Shown piece after piece: positions 18,935 to 28,938 of a DNA stretch of 64,000 nt. Where the stretch lies: assembly GCA_035623075.1 (NCBI GenBank), contig DASPUC010000022.1:1-64000 (forward strand), read 5' to 3'. The position numbers and the translations under genes are program-made. This DNA comes from Nitrospiraceae bacterium (lineage in GTDB: Bacteria > Nitrospirota > Nitrospiria > Nitrospirales > Nitrospiraceae). The stretch's first letter is position 1. Each line of letters starts with the position of its first letter. Below the pieces are notes generated by a model that saw only the letters and a program-made list of their open reading frames with translations, ran no database searches and was not told where the DNA came from.

Positions 18935-19220
18935 AGCGATCGCCCCCACCGGATTGTCGTACTGGTGATTACATAGGCAACGGCAATGCCATGTCGCCCC
19001 ATATCGCGAAGTCCCTGATGATTCAAGTCGATCAGTACTCGAAGGCCCTGCACTCCCACCCATGGATGAGGAGAGATGAGGACAAACTCCACAAATATCA
19101 ATCTCTGTGTGCAGCAAAACGCTACGGTCCCGGGAACTCAAAGAAGAAATGACAAGGTGAAATCTGCGTCGCCTCACGGCACACATGATGCACCAGCTTC
19201 CAAACAGTGCGGTGGGCACA

Positions 19221-19949
19221 ATGACCTTTCCTCTCGTAGACATTCGCAATCTCACCTTCCAGGTTGGCCGTCAGACGATTCTCGACCGACTCGATCTCAC
19301 GATCCAAGCGCAAGAGATCCACGCCCTCCTCGGGGCGAATGGCTCCGGCAAGACGACGCTCGCCTACCTCCTCATGGGTTGCGAGGGCTATGTACCGACA
19401 GCCGGAACCCTTCTATTTGAAGGCGCTGACCTGCTTCCGCTCAAAATGCACGAACGGGCGAGGCTGGGCCTGACCCTCGCCTGGCAAGAACCGGCTCGGT
19501 TTGAAGGCGTCACGGTTCGCGAGTTCCTGACGCTTGGCCATTCGGAACGCGATCCGGAACCAGTGCTGATGCAAGTCGGGCTCGACCCCGACCGCTACCT
19601 GAACCGGCGAGTCGATAAAGCCCTCAGCGGAGGCGAACGCCACCGCATCGAGCTGGCTTCCGTGCTAACCATGAAGCCGAAGCTGGCCATCCTCGATGAG
19701 CCTGCCGCCGGTATCGACATGCTCTCGGTCAACCACATTATCAAGGTCATCCGCACGCTCAAGGACAACGGCGGGGCCGTCTTGCTCATCACCCATCAGG
19801 AAGAAGTCGCGGCGATTGCGGACTCGGCATCCCAATTATGTAACGGCCAGATCATCTTCTCCGGCGATCCGGCCCATGTCATCGAACACTTTCGCGGGCG
19901 GACCTGCGTCCGGTGCGATGGAGAGGTTTGCGGATATGTCCGACCTTGA
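19221..19949 (+). CDS. smsC: SufC/SmsC-like Fe-S assembly ATPase, 242 aa
   Basis: ABC ATPase of the SufC type. Walker A GANGSGKTT (about residue 37), Q-loop WQEP, signature LSGGERHRIEL, Walker B LAILDEPAAGID and switch THQEE. The LSGGERHRIE form and the absence of a membrane partner mark the SufC branch rather than a transporter. It overlaps the SufB/D-like gene by 14 bp. No SufS, SufU, second SufB/D or IscU is adjacent. A lone SufC+SufB pair matches the minimal SMS system known from archaea and some deep bacterial lineages. The C-terminal tail has three Cys (CVRCDGEVC), which is unusual. ATG 19221 is selected by homology of MTFPLVDIRNL. Confidence 0.88.
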   Translation: MTFPLVDIRNLTFQVGRQTILDRLDLTIQAQEIHALLGANGSGKTTLAYLLMGCEGYVPTAGTLLFEGADLLPLKMHERARLGLTLAWQEPARFEGVTVREFLTLGHSERDPEPVLMQVGLDPDRYLNRRVDKALSGGERHRIELASVLTMKPKLAILDEPAAGIDMLSVNHIIKVIRTLKDNGGAVLLITHQEEVAAIADSASQLCNGQIIFSGDPAHVIEHFRGRTCVRCDGEVCGYVRP

Positions 19950-20871
19950 GGAGCTCATTCGCGCCCTGCCGATGGTCGGAGCGGAGCCGACGATCCTTGA
20001 CGACGAGCGGATCGCGCACGTCGTCGGACACGGCCATCGCATCCTCAGCCGCCGGTCTGTTCCAGGGTTACACCTGGACGTGGAGGAAACGCCTGATGCA
20101 ATCGTTGGAAAGATGACGATTCAAGCGGGCGCAAGCATCGCTCAACCCATCCACATGTGTTTTGGCCTGGCTCATCGGACCGGTAGACAACGAATTAAAA
20201 TCGACGTCATGGTGGAAGAGGGGGCGACAGCGCACGTGCTTGCCCATTGCCTCTTTCCTGTCGCCCAAGCCGCAGAGCATCGCATGCAGGCCAGGATCGA
20301 CATCGGACCAGGCGCGTCGCTGACGTACACCGAAGGCCACTACCACGGCCCGCATGGCGGCATGCAGGTTCTTCCCCACGCCACGATCAGAATCGGAAAA
20401 GGCGCGCGCTACTTTTCCGATTTCTCATTACTATCCGGCTCGGTGGGTAGTCTCGATATCGACTATCTCGTCGACGTGGAGGAGGAGGGCATCGCCGAAC
20501 TTACTGCGAAGATCTTCGCACACAGGACCGATCACATCACGCTCAAGGAAGCCGTCATGCTCCGAGGGGAGCGGTCGCGGGGTCTCATCAAGACGCGAGT
20601 GGTGCTGGAGAACGAGGCTCGCGCGGAGATCACGGGGATCACGGAGGCCCATGCAAAAGGAGCCCGTGGCCACGTGGATTGCATGGAAATCGTGCAGGGT
20701 CAGGCCCATGCCAGCGCGATTCCCATCGTCAGGGTGTTTCATCCGGAAGCAAAAGTCACCCACGAAGCCGCCATCGGCAGTGTCGATAAGAAAGAATTGG
20801 AAACATTAATGGCGCGGGGACTCTCGCCGGAACAAGCCGTGGAGATAATCGTGAGCGGAATTTTGCGATGA
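19936..20871 (+). CDS. smsB: SufB/SufD-like Fe-S scaffold (SmsB type), 311 aa
   Basis: Partner of the ATPase it overlaps. ATG 19936 follows GAGAGG by nine bases; the frame is open further upstream only as a shadow of smsC. The middle shows the SufBD right-handed beta-helix pattern (VEEGATAHVLAHCLFP, then SLDIDYLVDVEEEG). The C-terminus has the conserved HEAAIGSVDKKELETLMARGLSPEQA. About 310 residues is much shorter than SufB (about 470) and matches the compact archaeal-type protein. A Cys in GHVDCMEIVQG and a His in THEAAIG are candidates for cluster ligands. Predicted role: cytoplasmic scaffold assembling Fe-S clusters. Confidence 0.88.
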   Translation: MSDLEELIRALPMVGAEPTILDDERIAHVVGHGHRILSRRSVPGLHLDVEETPDAIVGKMTIQAGASIAQPIHMCFGLAHRTGRQRIKIDVMVEEGATAHVLAHCLFPVAQAAEHRMQARIDIGPGASLTYTEGHYHGPHGGMQVLPHATIRIGKGARYFSDFSLLSGSVGSLDIDYLVDVEEEGIAELTAKIFAHRTDHITLKEAVMLRGERSRGLIKTRVVLENEARAEITGITEAHAKGARGHVDCMEIVQGQAHASAIPIVRVFHPEAKVTHEAAIGSVDKKELETLMARGLSPEQAVEIIVSGILR

Positions 20872-20883
20872 CCGATCGCTCAG

Positions 20884-21987
20884 CTATCGGTCCGGGCGGG
20901 CCTGCTTGAGCAACAGCGGCGCTCGGCGCGCACCCCACTGCCCCGGCTGTGCTTCGAAGATTCCGGCACAGGGAGCACTGCAAAACCGACAAATCCCACC
21001 GAGGGACAGATTCCAATCGGACAATTCATACCCTATTCGGCCGACGAGCAGCTGGCCGCAAGCATGACAGTAGGTGCTACCACCCTCGACATCTCGCACG
21101 TTGCCGGTGTAGGCGTAACGGATGCCGTTCTTCATGGCGATCCTCCGAGCCATGGTCAATGTGGATGGTGGCGTGGGCGGGATGTCGAGCATTTTATAGT
21201 CTGGATGAAAGGCGCTAAAGTGGATCGGCACGTCAGGGCCAAGATGCTCGACTACCCACTGCGTCAACCGCTCGAGTTCAGCCTCCGAATCGTTCTCTCC
21301 AGGGATCACGAGGGTGGTGAGCTCCAGCCACACGTTCGTGTGATGCTTGATGTAGACCAGTGTGCCGAGAACCGGCTGAAGGCTTCCGCCGCAGATCTGC
21401 CTATAGAATCGCTCCGTGAATCCCTTAAGATCGACATTCGCTGCGTCCATGTACCGGTAGAATTCTTCTCGCGGCTCATCACAGACATATCCCGTCGTGA
21501 CGGCAACCGATCTGATTCCTCGCTCGCGACAGGCCTGCGCGACATCGATCGCGTACTCGTGGAAGATGACCGGATCATTGTAGGTGTAGGCAACAGACCG
21601 GCAATCGAGTTCCGTCGCTGCACGCGCGATCGTTTCCGGAGAGGCTTCGTCCGCCAACGTGTCCATCTCGCGTGACTTGCTCATGTCCCAGTTCTGGCAG
21701 AACTTGCACGAGAGGTTGCAGCCAGCGGTTCCAAACGATAGGACCGAGGTACCGGGAAGAAAATGATTCAGCGGCTTTTTCTCGATTGGATCGACGCAAA
21801 ATCCGCTCGACCGTCCATATGTCGTCAGGACGATCTGATCCTCCTCCCGCGCCCGGACGAAGCACAACCCTTGTTGTCCGTCGAGAAGTTTACAGTAGCG
21901 CGGACAGAGATCGCATTGGATGCGTCCATCGTTCAATTGATGCCAATATTTCGTCGGCGCGTTCATTGTGACTTGTGAATTCGTCAT
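20884..21987 (-). CDS. amrS: AmmeMemoRadiSam-type radical SAM protein (AmrS), 367 aa
   Basis: Radical SAM enzyme. The cluster motif CNLSCKFCQNW lies near residue 94, preceded by the family's CDLCPRYCKL (about 25) and GLCFVR. The SAM-binding region includes VAYTYNDPVIFHEYA. ANVDLKGFTERFY and HFSAFHPDYKM are typical of AmrS. A C-terminal zinc-like part (CHACG, then CRFCSAPC) follows. Family members sit with AMMECR1 and Memo genes; neither is nearby, and the substrate is unknown. It is convergent with smsB, 12 bp apart, so a new Fe-S user ends right beside an Fe-S assembly pair. Met at 21966 is an alternative start. Confidence 0.9.
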   Translation of the reverse strand: MTNSQVTMNAPTKYWHQLNDGRIQCDLCPRYCKLLDGQQGLCFVRAREEDQIVLTTYGRSSGFCVDPIEKKPLNHFLPGTSVLSFGTAGCNLSCKFCQNWDMSKSREMDTLADEASPETIARAATELDCRSVAYTYNDPVIFHEYAIDVAQACRERGIRSVAVTTGYVCDEPREEFYRYMDAANVDLKGFTERFYRQICGGSLQPVLGTLVYIKHHTNVWLELTTLVIPGENDSEAELERLTQWVVEHLGPDVPIHFSAFHPDYKMLDIPPTPPSTLTMARRIAMKNGIRYAYTGNVRDVEGGSTYCHACGQLLVGRIGYELSDWNLSLGGICRFCSAPCAGIFEAQPGQWGARRAPLLLKQARPDR

Positions 21988-22076: not shown

Positions 22077-23138
22077 ATGCTGACGATTGACGGCTCGCGC
22101 TATTCAGGAAGCGGAACGATCGTAAGACAGGCGGTCGCCTTTTCCGCCCTGACGGGCCAGTCCATCCGCGTAATCAATGCCCGAGCCAAGCGGGACAAGC
22201 CCGGCTTGCGTCCGCAGCACATTCGCGTCATTGAAGCGATAGCCGAGCTCGTCACGGGACGCGCCGAGGGACTGGCGCAAGGCTCGCAGGAATTCACGTT
22301 TCGTCCCGGCCTCCTCAAGGCGGGGCGACATTATAACTGGGACATCGGCTCCGCCGGTTCGACCACCATGTTGGGCCTCGGGATCATGCCGGTCCTCGCC
22401 TTCGCAGGGTCAGATGTCACAGTCGAATTGCGGGGCGGTCTCTTCCAGGACTTTGCCCCGTCTGCCTTTCATCTCCAGCATATCCTCCTTCCAATCCTGC
22501 ACGCGATGGATCTCCGGGTAGAGATCGAGATCGCACGTCCCGGCTACGTGCCCCGCGGCGACGGCATCCTCCGACTCGCGGTGAACCCACTCACGGAACC
22601 TTTTCGAGCGATCGTGAAGGAACAGGCGGGACCAGTGACACGAATATGGGGGATCGCTCTCTCCTCTCATCTTGAGGAACGGCAAGTGAGCCGGCGTATG
22701 GCAGACGCGGCGCGAGACGTGCTCGTCAAGGCCGGTTATCGGGCTGAAATCGAAGTCCGCAACGATACCGAGTCGCTGCAGCCCGGCGCGGCGCTCGCGC
22801 TGTTCGCCAATCAAGGGGAAGCAGTGCGACTTGGCGCGGACCAGGCTGGCGCTTTACGAAGAAGGGCGGAGTCGATCGGCAAGCACGTCGCCCGCCAACT
22901 CCTCCAGGATCTCGAGTCCGGTGCGACACTGGACCGGTTCGCCGCGGATCAGATCATTCCCTTTGCCGCGCTGGCGGGAGGCGAGAGTCGGTTTATCATC
23001 CCAGCCGTGACGGATCATGTATTGACGGGCGCCTGGCTGGCTGATTTATTTCTTGGCGCGCGCGTGAGGATCGACGGTCGACGAATGACCATCGACGGAG
23101 TTGAATTCTGGCCGAATCGTGATCGCAAAACCAGTTAA
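22077..23138 (+). CDS. rtcA: RNA 3'-terminal phosphate cyclase, 353 aa
   Basis: ATP-dependent enzyme that turns RNA 3'-phosphate into a 2',3'-cyclic phosphate. Seen: N-terminal DGSRYSGSGTIVRQA, RDKPGLRPQH, and the GSAGSTTML segment of the family. Near the C-terminus come ADQIIPFAALAGG and TDHVLTG, where the His matches the adenylated catalytic His of E. coli RtcA. Length is normal. It leads a tight same-strand set with a Mut7-C nuclease (16 bp gap), endonuclease V and DUF1614. No rtcB or rtcR is in the window. The form resembles archaeal-type sequences, suggesting transfer. Confidence 0.93.
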   Translation: MLTIDGSRYSGSGTIVRQAVAFSALTGQSIRVINARAKRDKPGLRPQHIRVIEAIAELVTGRAEGLAQGSQEFTFRPGLLKAGRHYNWDIGSAGSTTMLGLGIMPVLAFAGSDVTVELRGGLFQDFAPSAFHLQHILLPILHAMDLRVEIEIARPGYVPRGDGILRLAVNPLTEPFRAIVKEQAGPVTRIWGIALSSHLEERQVSRRMADAARDVLVKAGYRAEIEVRNDTESLQPGAALALFANQGEAVRLGADQAGALRRRAESIGKHVARQLLQDLESGATLDRFAADQIIPFAALAGGESRFIIPAVTDHVLTGAWLADLFLGARVRIDGRRMTIDGVEFWPNRDRKTS

Positions 23139-23154
23139 CAAGACTCCTCTCCAT

Positions 23155-23670
23155 ATGGATTCTCTTCACCCATCCAGTCAGCCGCCGACGCGGTTCATGG
23201 CCGATGCGATGCTCGGTCGCCTCGCGCGGTGGCTCCGCATCCTCGGTTATGACACGGCATATGAAAAGATCATCCCGGACGAGGTGTTGATCGAGCGTGT
23301 GCTCGGGGAGAATCGGTGGCTCCTCACCCGCGACGGATACCTGGCACAACGCAAAGTGCTCCGTGGTCGTCATACCTTGATCGCGAGCGGCCACATCGAC
23401 GACCAACTCCGTCAGCTCCATGATCAACTGTCCCTTCACCTTGATCTTGCCGAACACGGACAGTTCCGCTGCGCCGACTGTAACGCCGCGCTCCATCCCA
23501 TTTCCGCTGAAGAGGCGTCGGCTCTGGTTCCACCCTTCGTCGCACGGCATTACCACGAGTTCCTGCAATGCGACTCCTGCGGCCGCGTCTACTGGCCGGG
23601 GACTCACTGGGAAGCGTTGACCGGCCGGCTCGCTCTCATCAAGAAAGGAGAGAGGGGCACCGATCGATGA
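23155..23670 (+). CDS. Mut7-C RNase-domain protein with zinc ribbon, 171 aa
   Basis: Mut7-C (PIN-related) domain at about residues 14-95: FMADAMLGRLARWLRILGYD, then acidic IPDEVLIERV and LLTRDGYLAQRK. These supply the conserved Asp residues expected to bind Mg2+. A zinc ribbon follows (CADCNA about residue 105, then CDSCGRVYWPGTHW about 140). Proteins of this fold are predicted RNases and are common in archaea and deep-branching bacteria. ATG 23155 is used; ATG 23197 is possible. Its stop overlaps the endonuclease V start (ATGA), so the two are translationally coupled. Confidence 0.88.
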   Translation: MDSLHPSSQPPTRFMADAMLGRLARWLRILGYDTAYEKIIPDEVLIERVLGENRWLLTRDGYLAQRKVLRGRHTLIASGHIDDQLRQLHDQLSLHLDLAEHGQFRCADCNAALHPISAEEASALVPPFVARHYHEFLQCDSCGRVYWPGTHWEALTGRLALIKKGERGTDR

Positions 23671-24350
23671 ACGTCTCTCTGTTCCACCCATGGAACGTGA
23701 CGCCGCAGGAGGCTGTGCAGATTCAAGAACAGCTTCGACGAAAGGTCTTGTCGCGCGGGCGAGTGCCTCGTCCGGCGCTGGTCGCCGGAGCCGACGCGGC
23801 GTTCGATCTTGAAAGCCGGCTGGTGTTCGCCGCGGTGGTTGTGCTGTCGTTTCCCGATTTGGAACGGGTCGAGACGGTGATCCACCGCGACCGCTGCACG
23901 TTTCCCTACATCCCCGGCCTGCTATCGTTTCGTGAATCTCCCGCCCTGCTCCACGCATTCGCCCGACTCCGGCACGATCCCGACGTCATCTTTATCGATG
24001 GGCACGGCCTCTCACATCCTCGATCAGCAGGGATCGCCTGCCATATCGGCATCTCTGTGGACCGACCGGTCATCGGATGTGCCAAATCCAAACTCACCGG
24101 CGAGTTTCGCGAGCCAGGCCTAGCCCGCGGAGCCACCTCCATGCTGTATGATCCCCAGGGCAAAGTAATGGGCGCAGTCGTTCGGACGCGCGATCGAGTC
24201 AAGCCGGTCTTTGTGTCGGTCGGCCATAAAATCAGTCTCGCTGAAGCCGTTCGCCTCACCCTGGCCTGCGGGAGAGGCTACCGAATTCCTGAACCGACGC
24301 GACAGGCAGACCTGCTGGCGGAGCGGGCCAAGAAGGAAAACCGCCCATGA
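23667..24350 (+). CDS. nfi: endonuclease V, 227 aa
   Basis: Cuts the second phosphodiester 3' of inosine in DNA, and in many species RNA. Metal ligands and wedge are visible: VAGADAAFD (first Asp), PYIPGLLSFRE (Tyr wedge and Glu), IDGHGLSHPR (Asp and His) with GIACHIG, then the Lys of CAKSKLTG. All key residues look intact. ATG 23667 overlaps the upstream stop, and its own stop overlaps the DUF1614 ATG at 24347, so four genes form one operon from rtcA. Confidence 0.93.
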   Translation: MNVSLFHPWNVTPQEAVQIQEQLRRKVLSRGRVPRPALVAGADAAFDLESRLVFAAVVVLSFPDLERVETVIHRDRCTFPYIPGLLSFRESPALLHAFARLRHDPDVIFIDGHGLSHPRSAGIACHIGISVDRPVIGCAKSKLTGEFREPGLARGATSMLYDPQGKVMGAVVRTRDRVKPVFVSVGHKISLAEAVRLTLACGRGYRIPEPTRQADLLAERAKKENRP

Positions 24351-25025
24351 GAACTCTCGGTTGTCTCCCGCTCCTATTGTTCCTGCTGTTGCTTGCACTC
24401 CTGCCCTTCGTGTTCGGAGAGCTCTTCTCCACCGCCCTCATGAAACTGCGCCTGACCCCCCCGCGCAGCCCTGTGGGTGATTCTGGGTATCCTGGTTGGA
24501 AGCAGTATCAACATTCCCGTCAGACGCATCGCACGGAACGAGGACGTCGTGGAGGACCCGCTCGCCCTCTTCGGCATCTCTGGATGGTGGCCACAGTTCC
24601 GACGTGTTCGACGGGAAACGATCATTGCCGTCAACGTCGGCGGCTGCCTTATCCCGGTCGGCTTGGCCTTTTACGAGACAGCCCACCTCATGATCGAAAA
24701 CTGGCATAGCCTCGTCGGATTGGTTCTTGCCATTCTCGTGAACACACTGGTCTGTTACCGGTTGGCCCAGCCCATAGAGGGCATTGGTATCGCGATGCCT
24801 GGTCTCTTTCCTCCGCTCGTTGCCGTGATGAGCGCCCTGCTGTTGGCTCCCGATCAAGCCCCTCCCGTGGCCTTCGTGGCCGGCGTGCTGGGGCCGCTGA
24901 TCGGAGCCGATCTTCTGCACCTCCGCGACGTCTCCAAGATCGCCACTGGCATCGCGAGCATCGGCGGCGCCGGTACCTTCGACGGCATCGTGCTCTCGGG
25001 AATTGTCGCGGCGTACCTGGCGTGA
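24347..25025 (+). pseudogene. DUF1614 membrane protein, frameshifted at a C7 run
   Basis: Multi-pass inner-membrane protein family of unknown role. The first frame from ATG 24347 gives MRTLGCLPLLLFLLLLALLP and TALMKLRLTPP. After seven C residues (24456-24462) the family sequence continues only in the next frame (AALWVILGILVGSSINIPVRR), through GGCLIPVGLAFY and DVSKIATGIASIGGAGTFDG to 25025. Six C would restore one 225-residue protein. This could be a sequencing error, a decayed gene, or a phase-variable tract. It closes the rtcA-nfi operon. Confidence 0.82.
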
Positions 25026-27248: not shown

Positions 27249-27836
27249 TTACGGGACCTTGACGAATGGATATTGTTCACGCAGTGACTTGGTGATGATA
27301 CCGATTCCACACTCGTCGCCGACGGTCTCGATCGCAATAATCACGTCGGGGTTCTTGAAGTCGACACGAGGCCTGAATCCTCTTTGTGTCAACGACTCTA
27401 TGAGTGCATGGTCGAGTTCTTGCTCGAGTTGCTGGCCATGGATCTCGCCCTTGTGGCCCCTCCGTTCGACTCGCACATAAAAAGACCCGCTGCCGATCTG
27501 GTCGGCATAGTTCAGCACCTCCGCCCTGAGTGTGGGAACGAATGAGGCCGCATCGATCGTGACGGTCTTATCGAGCGGAACAACTCTGGCCAGCGGTAGG
27601 AGAAATCCCGGTTCAGTTTCCTCGCTGCGGCGCAGCTGATCAAAGAATGCCTGATGGTCCTCGACCCGTCCCATCAATACCCCGAGATAAGGAGACCACC
27701 GGAAGTCACCCAACCGCTTGAGCCTCCTGGCCAGACGCCCCTGCTCGTGATCCTTTGCCGCGGCCAGTACATTCCAACTCATCATCGCTCTTCGGCCTAC
27801 TGGAGCTTCGCGAACCGTCTCATCTTGCGACATCAT
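27249..27836 (-). CDS. stand-alone THUMP-domain protein, 195 aa
   Basis: The C-terminal 120 residues look like a THUMP domain: [41 protein letters not shown], and a final [25 protein letters not shown] binds the tRNA acceptor end and is normally fused to a tRNA-modifying enzyme. None is fused here, as in Tan1-like archaeal/eukaryal adaptors. ATG 27836 overlaps the stop of the LigD-PE gene, so the two are translationally coupled. An adaptor role in tRNA processing is inferred. Confidence 0.78.
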
Positions 27837-28369
27837 GTTCCACAGCGATATGCCTTGAGCTGCCCGGCCTGAGCTGCACGTTGGAGATCGTCGATCGTGC
27901 GGCCGGTCAAGACCGACGTATCCCACTCTTCCTTCATCTCGCGATCAGGGCGAGCCTCTTCATCCTGCTGTTTGATCAAAAGCCATTGCCGCGAGCGCCC
28001 TTTCATCTTGACGAGAGCAAAACGCCCGCGTAGTCGACGGCCATGCAGGATAAGATCTAACGCGCCCACTTCCCACATCTTTGCAACCGACCCTTGCCCT
28101 CGTGTTGGTTCATACCAACCTGTGTCCCATACAAGAACCGGCCCCGCCCCATACTGGCCTTCCTCAATCACCCCTTCGAAATCGGCGTATGTCAGGTCGT
28201 GATCTTCAACTTCGACCGCCAACCGCTTCACGCGCGGATCAAGCGTCGGCCCTTTGGGGATCGCCCAGGATTTTAGGACTCCGCCGATTTCTAATCGGAA
28301 ATCATAATGGAGATGGGACGCCTGATGTTTTTGCACGGTAAAGATCGGTCGGTGAATCTGTTTCGCCAT
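27833..28369 (-). CDS. LigD-type 3'-phosphoesterase domain protein, 178 aa
   Basis: Stand-alone DNA polymerase ligase N-terminal (PE) domain. Active-site His and Asp are visible in [14 protein letters not shown] (about residues 13-26), with AIPKGP, the second His in [15 protein letters not shown] and the EGQYGAGPV loop. Known PE domains remove 3'-phosphates and 3'-ribonucleotides before end joining. There is no ligase or polymerase domain and no Ku nearby. ATG 28369 is used because upstream residues are not family-like. Coupled to the THUMP gene downstream. Confidence 0.9.
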
Positions 28370-28938
28370 AGCAGTTCTGACAACGTTGGTCACGTAGCCC
28401 ACGGTACCATGTGAAGGTTAAACCGTCGCTTTGGAGTTCACTGAGCAAGTGGGATGCCGACTGAGGCCCGGCCGTTCCTCAAAGTCGACCGAAAACGCTT
28501 TTCCAGAAAGAACTCGATGAGATCGGATTTCCGGAGAGCATAGAACCATATGGGAGGGGTATCGGATCGACTCCATGATCCGGGAACCACCGCGACCTTT
28601 TGCCACATCGGCGGGGCACCTCTTGTAGCGGATTTCCTCAAAAGCATTCGATCCTGGACCCACCTTGGCAGTCCAATGGTTGAAGTTTTCAACGAGTTGT
28701 GGTGTTCCCCGTCTTGACGTCGCGTGGCCTCCTTCTTGCCCGTGTACTTATCTGAGTTTCTTCCGTGAACCGTAGAAGGATGAGCGCACGCAGCACAAGG
28801 AGAGGATGCCTCGATGAAAGCGCGGCGCGTCACGTAGAAGCGGTTCTCGCCGCCGGGGTCGCCGTAAGGTCGACCCCAAATCGTTCAGCGTGACCGGGCC
28901 GTAACAAGACCGAACCGATCAAACCAGGGAGGGGTACC
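28370..28938. other. no recognisable gene
   Basis: Long overlapping minus-strand frames are present, but none has a ribosome site or a sequence I recognise. It should hold divergent promoters for the LigD-PE gene and the CBS gene; no clear boxes are seen. Confidence 0.45.

Follow-up and report, generated by a model that had tools for sequence, protein, structure and literature searches.

A patchily distributed Nitrospiraceae gene set joins a divergent RtcA-like cyclase to Mut7-C, endonuclease V and DUF1614 genes

What brings an RNA 3'-terminal phosphate cyclase, a Mut7-C protein, an endonuclease V and a membrane protein into one run of genes is the question raised by positions 22077–25025 of the window, that is, the whole 64,000-nucleotide stretch of Nitrospiraceae DNA analysed here. 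The four genes (rtcA, Mut7-C, EndoV and DUF1614) are consecutive on the plus strand, and their profile scores are far above the curated cut-offs. The region contains the following features:

19185–20871, plus strand: SufC-like ATPase and SufBD-core genes, upstream of rtcA; neighbours in many relatives
20884–21987, minus strand: radical SAM gene of the AmmeMemoRadiSam system, transcribed divergently from rtcA (TIGR04337, 640.8 bits)
22077–23138, plus strand: RtcA-like RNA 3'-terminal phosphate cyclase of a divergent subfamily, with an SGSGT motif and residue 314 as the catalytic His (PF01137, PF05189, TIGR03399; alignment to solved RtcA structures)
23155–23670, plus strand: Mut7-C domain protein with a carboxy-terminal four-cysteine zinc ribbon, C106, C109, C139 and C142 (PF01927; alignment)
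23667–23670, plus strand: ATGA overlap of the Mut7-C stop and the EndoV start
23667–24350, plus strand: endonuclease V, active-site motifs D43, PYIP, FRE and D111 (PF04493, NF008629; solved EndoV homologues; alignment)
24347–24350, plus strand: ATGA overlap of the EndoV stop and the DUF1614 start
24347–25025, plus strand: DUF1614 membrane protein whose reading frame breaks at the C7 run 24456–24462, with the carboxy-terminal frame 24477–25025 intact (PF07758; full-length homologues)

An earlier note on this DNA had described a unit of these four genes with two ATGA overlaps, and all of these are present. Its broader statement, that overlapping stops and starts tie the genes together, holds for the Mut7-C/EndoV and EndoV/DUF1614 junctions and fails for the first one: the Mut7-C ATG at 23155 lies 16 bp beyond rtcA, and only an alternative start at an upstream TTG (23101) would make these two genes overlap. 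The radical SAM gene is a conserved neighbour outside the unit, and stands beside rtcA, divergently transcribed, in other Nitrospirota also (L215, L218, L219). Elsewhere in the window, at 27249–28402, a LigD 3'-phosphoesterase-domain gene is located beside a THUMP-domain gene, preceded by an open reading frame that by eye was judged adenosine-specific kinase-like. The LigD 3'-phosphoesterase-domain gene is found within about 5 kb of rtcA in G127, G139, G209, G258 and G128.

The DUF1614 gene is interrupted. The ATG frame from 24347 encodes the expected amino-terminus (MRTLGCLPLLLFLLLLALLPFVFGELFSTALMKLRLTP) and fits the homologues up to the C7 run, past which the homologous protein resumes in a different frame (24477–25025, PF07758 187.4 bits). 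In intact relatives DUF1614 occupies one continuous frame, so the window copy is a putative frameshifted gene or contains a sequence error at the C7 run; a programmed frameshift is unlikely, as the intact homologues stay in frame without one. The assignment as a membrane protein agrees with the PF07758 score and with the helical model of a homologue (L194, pLDDT 75). This model has no Foldseek match with E below 0.001, and no paper on DUF1614 was found in the literature searched. Partial second copies of the DUF1614 carboxy-terminus lie near a full gene in three relatives (G229:C153:8203-8364, G175:C32:24589-24753 and G222:C136:22902-23207), and in G255 and G247 Mut7-C is adjoined by a carboxy-terminal DUF1614 fragment alone.

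The RTC fold and its insert domain are both recognised in the window cyclase over curated cut-offs (PF01137, 203.5 bits; RTC_insert PF05189, 68.8 bits; TIGR03399, 286 against a cut-off of 250.05). Solved RtcA structures align with it over the full length, and the catalytic histidine, His309 in E. coli RtcA (PMC6277466), is retained as H314. Arg and Gln positions near this histidine are conserved in the alignment. The GEGGGQ motif is replaced by SGSGT, which places Ser10 at the position of E. coli Glu14, a residue of the motif that we take to be a metal ligand. Serine replaces the glutamate in every Nitrospiraceae row of the cyclase alignment, and SGSG[TA] is present in 56 of 56 further cyclase loci from Chloroflexota, Bipolaricaulota, Acidobacteriota, Desulfobacterota-type lineages and others, a count that is no census since the scan pattern favours the SGSGT subfamily. 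In the tree, a long branch with full support divides the SGSGT from the GEGGGQ cyclases, although long branches converge at that point. The RtcA-type window protein belongs to this divergent subfamily, which is spread over several phyla and is not described in any of the open-access literature searched. The missing glutamate suggests that the activity of the cyclase may have changed.

In other phyla, the SGSGT cyclase is adjoined in 13 loci (L223, L224, L227, L230, L231, L232, L239, L242, L243, L244, L262, L265 and L267) by an RNase W/FAU-1-like DUF402 gene, directly downstream on the same strand in 12 of them; DUF402 was confirmed on three examples. These neighbours point to RNA; in archaea, the maturation of rRNA involves RNase W (PMC11602121). 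In Dehalococcoidia, an NfeD-like gene lies upstream of the SGSGT cyclase and overlaps or touches it, or a Sir2 gene comes after the cyclase (L240, L247, L249, L250, L253, L255, L260; L246, L248, L252, L257).

The Mut7-C protein scores 141.3 bits against PF01927, and the zinc ribbon ascribed to it earlier is borne out by four cysteines that are invariant in the alignment. Its structure model (pLDDT 72) gives only weak Rossmann-like and PIN matches, with Z of 2.7–3.5, and no Foldseek match with E below 0.001; for this model, as for that of the DUF1614 homologue, no function is therefore drawn from the fold. The MUT7-C domain contributes to RNA binding, is not known to have nuclease activity and resembles PIN domains only distantly (PMC11347159). 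EndoV reaches 234.8 bits for Endonuclease_5 (PF04493) and 250.8 for NF008629, both over the cut-off, and together with the acidic active-site motifs these scores support its assignment to endonuclease V. The enzyme cleaves the second phosphodiester bond 3' of inosine, leaving a 3'-OH and a 5'-phosphate; its substrate is DNA and, for the E. coli and Pyrococcus enzymes, also RNA, the E. coli enzyme being a DNA repair enzyme (PMC4693234). In other Nitrospirota (L002–L005, L007, L029), EndoV is found inside open frames of 470–661 codons, possibly fusions.

Within Nitrospiraceae, the genes are patchily distributed: among 175 genomes rtcA occurs in 37, Mut7-C in 23, EndoV in 14 and DUF1614, fragments counted, in 40. 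When pairs are compared by Fisher tests over these genomes, which ignore relatedness, all 14 EndoV genomes also have rtcA (p=3.6e-11), as do 20 of the 23 with Mut7-C (p=2.1e-13), and the remaining associations follow (DUF1614/Mut7-C 1.2e-9, EndoV/Mut7-C 1.5e-7, EndoV/DUF1614 7e-5). Checked by genus, the rtcA/EndoV association persists between genera (p=0.004) and within genus g3 (p=0.003). The full order is present in the window genome and in G229, G156, G163, G123 and G225. In G123 both EndoV and DUF1614 are broken, while in G225 rtcA is broken and about 5 kb from the other genes and EndoV is mostly deleted. Shorter arrangements are rtcA-Mut7-C-DUF1614 (G230, G184, G179, G178), rtcA-DUF1614 (G191, G221, G213, G202), rtcA-Mut7-C (G142, G269, G271), Mut7-C-EndoV apart from rtcA (G268, G139, G237) and a Mut7-C-DUF1614 pair without rtcA (G214, G255, G263). 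The tightest pair is Mut7-C and DUF1614, adjacent in 17 of the 18 genomes holding both; rtcA often accompanies them, and EndoV is the member most readily dispensed with.

The overlaps recur along with the order. The Mut7-C/EndoV ATGA is also found in G123, G156, G163, G237 and G268, and that of EndoV/DUF1614 in G123, G156, G163, G211 and G222. Where EndoV is absent, Mut7-C and DUF1614 overlap directly by ATGA or GTGA (G230, G178, G184, G179); in G269 and G271 there is a GTGA overlap between rtcA and Mut7-C. That an overlap is retained even when the gene in between has gone suggests that coupled translation is under selection. Most coupled arrangements group, in the rtcA tree, within a single supported clade of 19 sequences; G269 and G271 belong to another. 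The order is not unique to the window genome; such uniqueness was one of two findings that the earlier note would have taken as refuting its proposal. The other, dispersal of the genes in relatives, is not borne out within Nitrospiraceae either, where relatives keep the order or coupled parts of it. The arrangement is not fixed, however: deeper-branching members (G127, G139, G237, G132, G135) have some of the genes apart. The frameshift in the window DUF1614 and the broken EndoV and DUF1614 of G123 indicate that the gene set is dispensable.

When the Nitrospiraceae cyclase was used as query over 84,980 species genomes, 195 relatives were obtained. At 54 non-Nitrospiraceae loci examined, Mut7-C, EndoV and DUF1614 were never found within 7 kb of this cyclase type (0/54), so the four-gene order is a feature of the family and a wide spread of it is rejected. 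The link between rtcA and EndoV reaches further. In a sample of 296 Nitrospirota genomes, 44 outside Nitrospiraceae have both genes, and in six of these they are neighbours, against about 0.035 expected under random placement (G006, G016, G116, G291 and G373, and divergently in G015). The layouts include RTC-EndoV, EndoV-RTC and divergent ones, and the three cyclases that were aligned are of the GEGGGQ form and about 30% identical to the window protein. These outside pairs appear independent of the operon in Nitrospiraceae.

Gene content, order, conserved overlaps and co-occurrence are thus established for a patchy minority of Nitrospiraceae. We tentatively favour the reading that these genes form a translationally coupled nucleic-acid damage operon, whose enzymes could share substrates without acting in series. 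This reading is supported by the co-occurrence and the conserved overlaps, and independently by the rtcA-EndoV pairs outside the family. The substrates of all four products would belong to a single pool of RNA, or DNA, that is damaged or modified. EndoV would nick inosine-bearing strands, and Mut7-C would bind and might trim RNA. The RtcA-type enzyme would spend ATP on activating nucleic-acid ends, most likely 3'- or 2'-phosphates produced by other nucleases, and these ends would pass to an unlinked RtcB, which is nearly universal (160 of 175 Nitrospiraceae genomes). The 5'-phosphate left by EndoV would be an alternative target of the cyclase, and DUF1614 may serve the set as a membrane anchor. 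RtcA makes cyclic phosphates from 3'- or 2'-phosphate ends and is also able to adenylylate 5'-phosphates (PMC8131947); the mismatch between its main substrate and the 3'-OH/5'-phosphate ends of EndoV counts against the proposed damage operon, as do the partial dispersal of the genes in deeper Nitrospiraceae, the lack of the partners near this cyclase outside the family, the dispensability of the set and the altered cyclase motif. RtcB itself, being ubiquitous and unlinked, is ruled out as an operon partner. A role in phage defence was also considered and set aside, the four proteins being without any PADLOC match.

The genes may instead share no more than a promoter and stress control, with their products in separate pathways, EndoV in repair of DNA deamination and RtcA with RtcB in RNA repair. 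The role of the E. coli EndoV in DNA repair (PMC4693234), the presence of RtcB in trans and the modular, partly lost gene sets are all consistent with such co-regulation. The conserved translational coupling and the repeated, independent linkage of rtcA to EndoV suggest a closer relation, and we consider co-regulation alone somewhat unlikely.

A more direct connection would exist if the cyclase adenylylated the 5'-phosphate that EndoV leaves on DNA or RNA, the resulting App ends serving for protection or for priming ligation. E. coli RtcA adenylylates 5'-phosphate ends of both DNA and RNA (PMC8131947), EndoV yields such ends, rtcA-EndoV pairs recur, and conservation covers the catalytic His as well as Arg and Gln positions close to it. 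The unit is without a dedicated ligase, however, and the scheme is more complex than simple co-regulation; it is accordingly an unlikely account. It is quite doubtful that the SGSGT cyclases represent a separate kind of end-activating enzyme, such as an adenylyltransferase of 5' or 3' ends with changed metal use, whose nuclease partner would differ from phylum to phylum: EndoV and Mut7-C in Nitrospiraceae, an RNase W-like protein in Bipolaricaulota, Chloroflexota and others.

The earlier note had envisaged serial chemistry, in which EndoV cuts at inosine, Mut7-C trims and RtcA closes the end into a cyclic phosphate. The genes are coupled and the rtcA-EndoV adjacency is repeated, as such a pathway would have it, but the chemistry does not join up. 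RtcA requires a 3'- or 2'-phosphate, and the 3'-OH and 5'-phosphate ends of EndoV are not cyclisable by it without a further enzyme; Mut7-C is not known to be a nuclease; and relatives whose operon has lost EndoV still have the cyclase, Mut7-C and DUF1614 in coupled form. Needing an extra step that makes 3'-phosphates, the pathway is very improbable as stated. Chance, or plain inheritance among close relatives, would suit a four-gene order limited to one family and the decaying copies in G123, G018 and G060, but is rejected by the survey: the co-occurrence, the conserved overlaps, an adjacency far above expectation and the independent rtcA-EndoV pairs in different orientation in other families leave it scarcely credible.

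Four known systems come closest to the unit. The RtcR-regulated rtcBA RNA-repair operon of E. coli and Salmonella likewise contains an RtcA-family cyclase, with RtcB in the same genome. There, rtcB is next to rtcA, whereas the RtcB gene of the window genome is unlinked (G000:C22:238820-240121, on the contig of rtcA but about 215 kb from it), the partners of the cyclase are Mut7-C, EndoV and DUF1614, and its motif is SGSGT, not GEGGGQ. With the alternative excision repair of endonuclease V (nfi), the window shares an EndoV that has the active-site motifs and exceeds the PF04493 and NF008629 cut-offs; in the window, however, this gene is translationally coupled to RNA-related genes, and no operon or other link of EndoV with RtcA was found in the literature searched. 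The window Mut7-C has the same domain, in minimal form with a four-Cys zinc ribbon, as prokaryotic stand-alone MUT7-C proteins (the RNA-binding domain of MUT-7/EXD3), but its gene shares an operon with those of EndoV and a cyclase. RNase W/FAU-1, an RNase E/G-like domain fused to DUF402, is resembled by DUF402 genes beside the same cyclase subfamily in other phyla, but by none in the window unit.

All the protein families are known. The literature searched yielded nothing on their combination, on its conserved coupling, on the recurrent link between rtcA and EndoV or on the SGSGT subfamily, whose members are widespread and related to RtcA. The repeated link of rtcA to EndoV, seen with two different cyclase subfamilies, offers a testable partner for two questions, that of the cellular substrate of RtcA and that of an RNA role of bacterial EndoV. 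Should the SGSGT cyclase prove to be a distinct end-activating enzyme, the Nitrospiraceae operon would be a new inosine-triggered RNA or DNA repair pathway.
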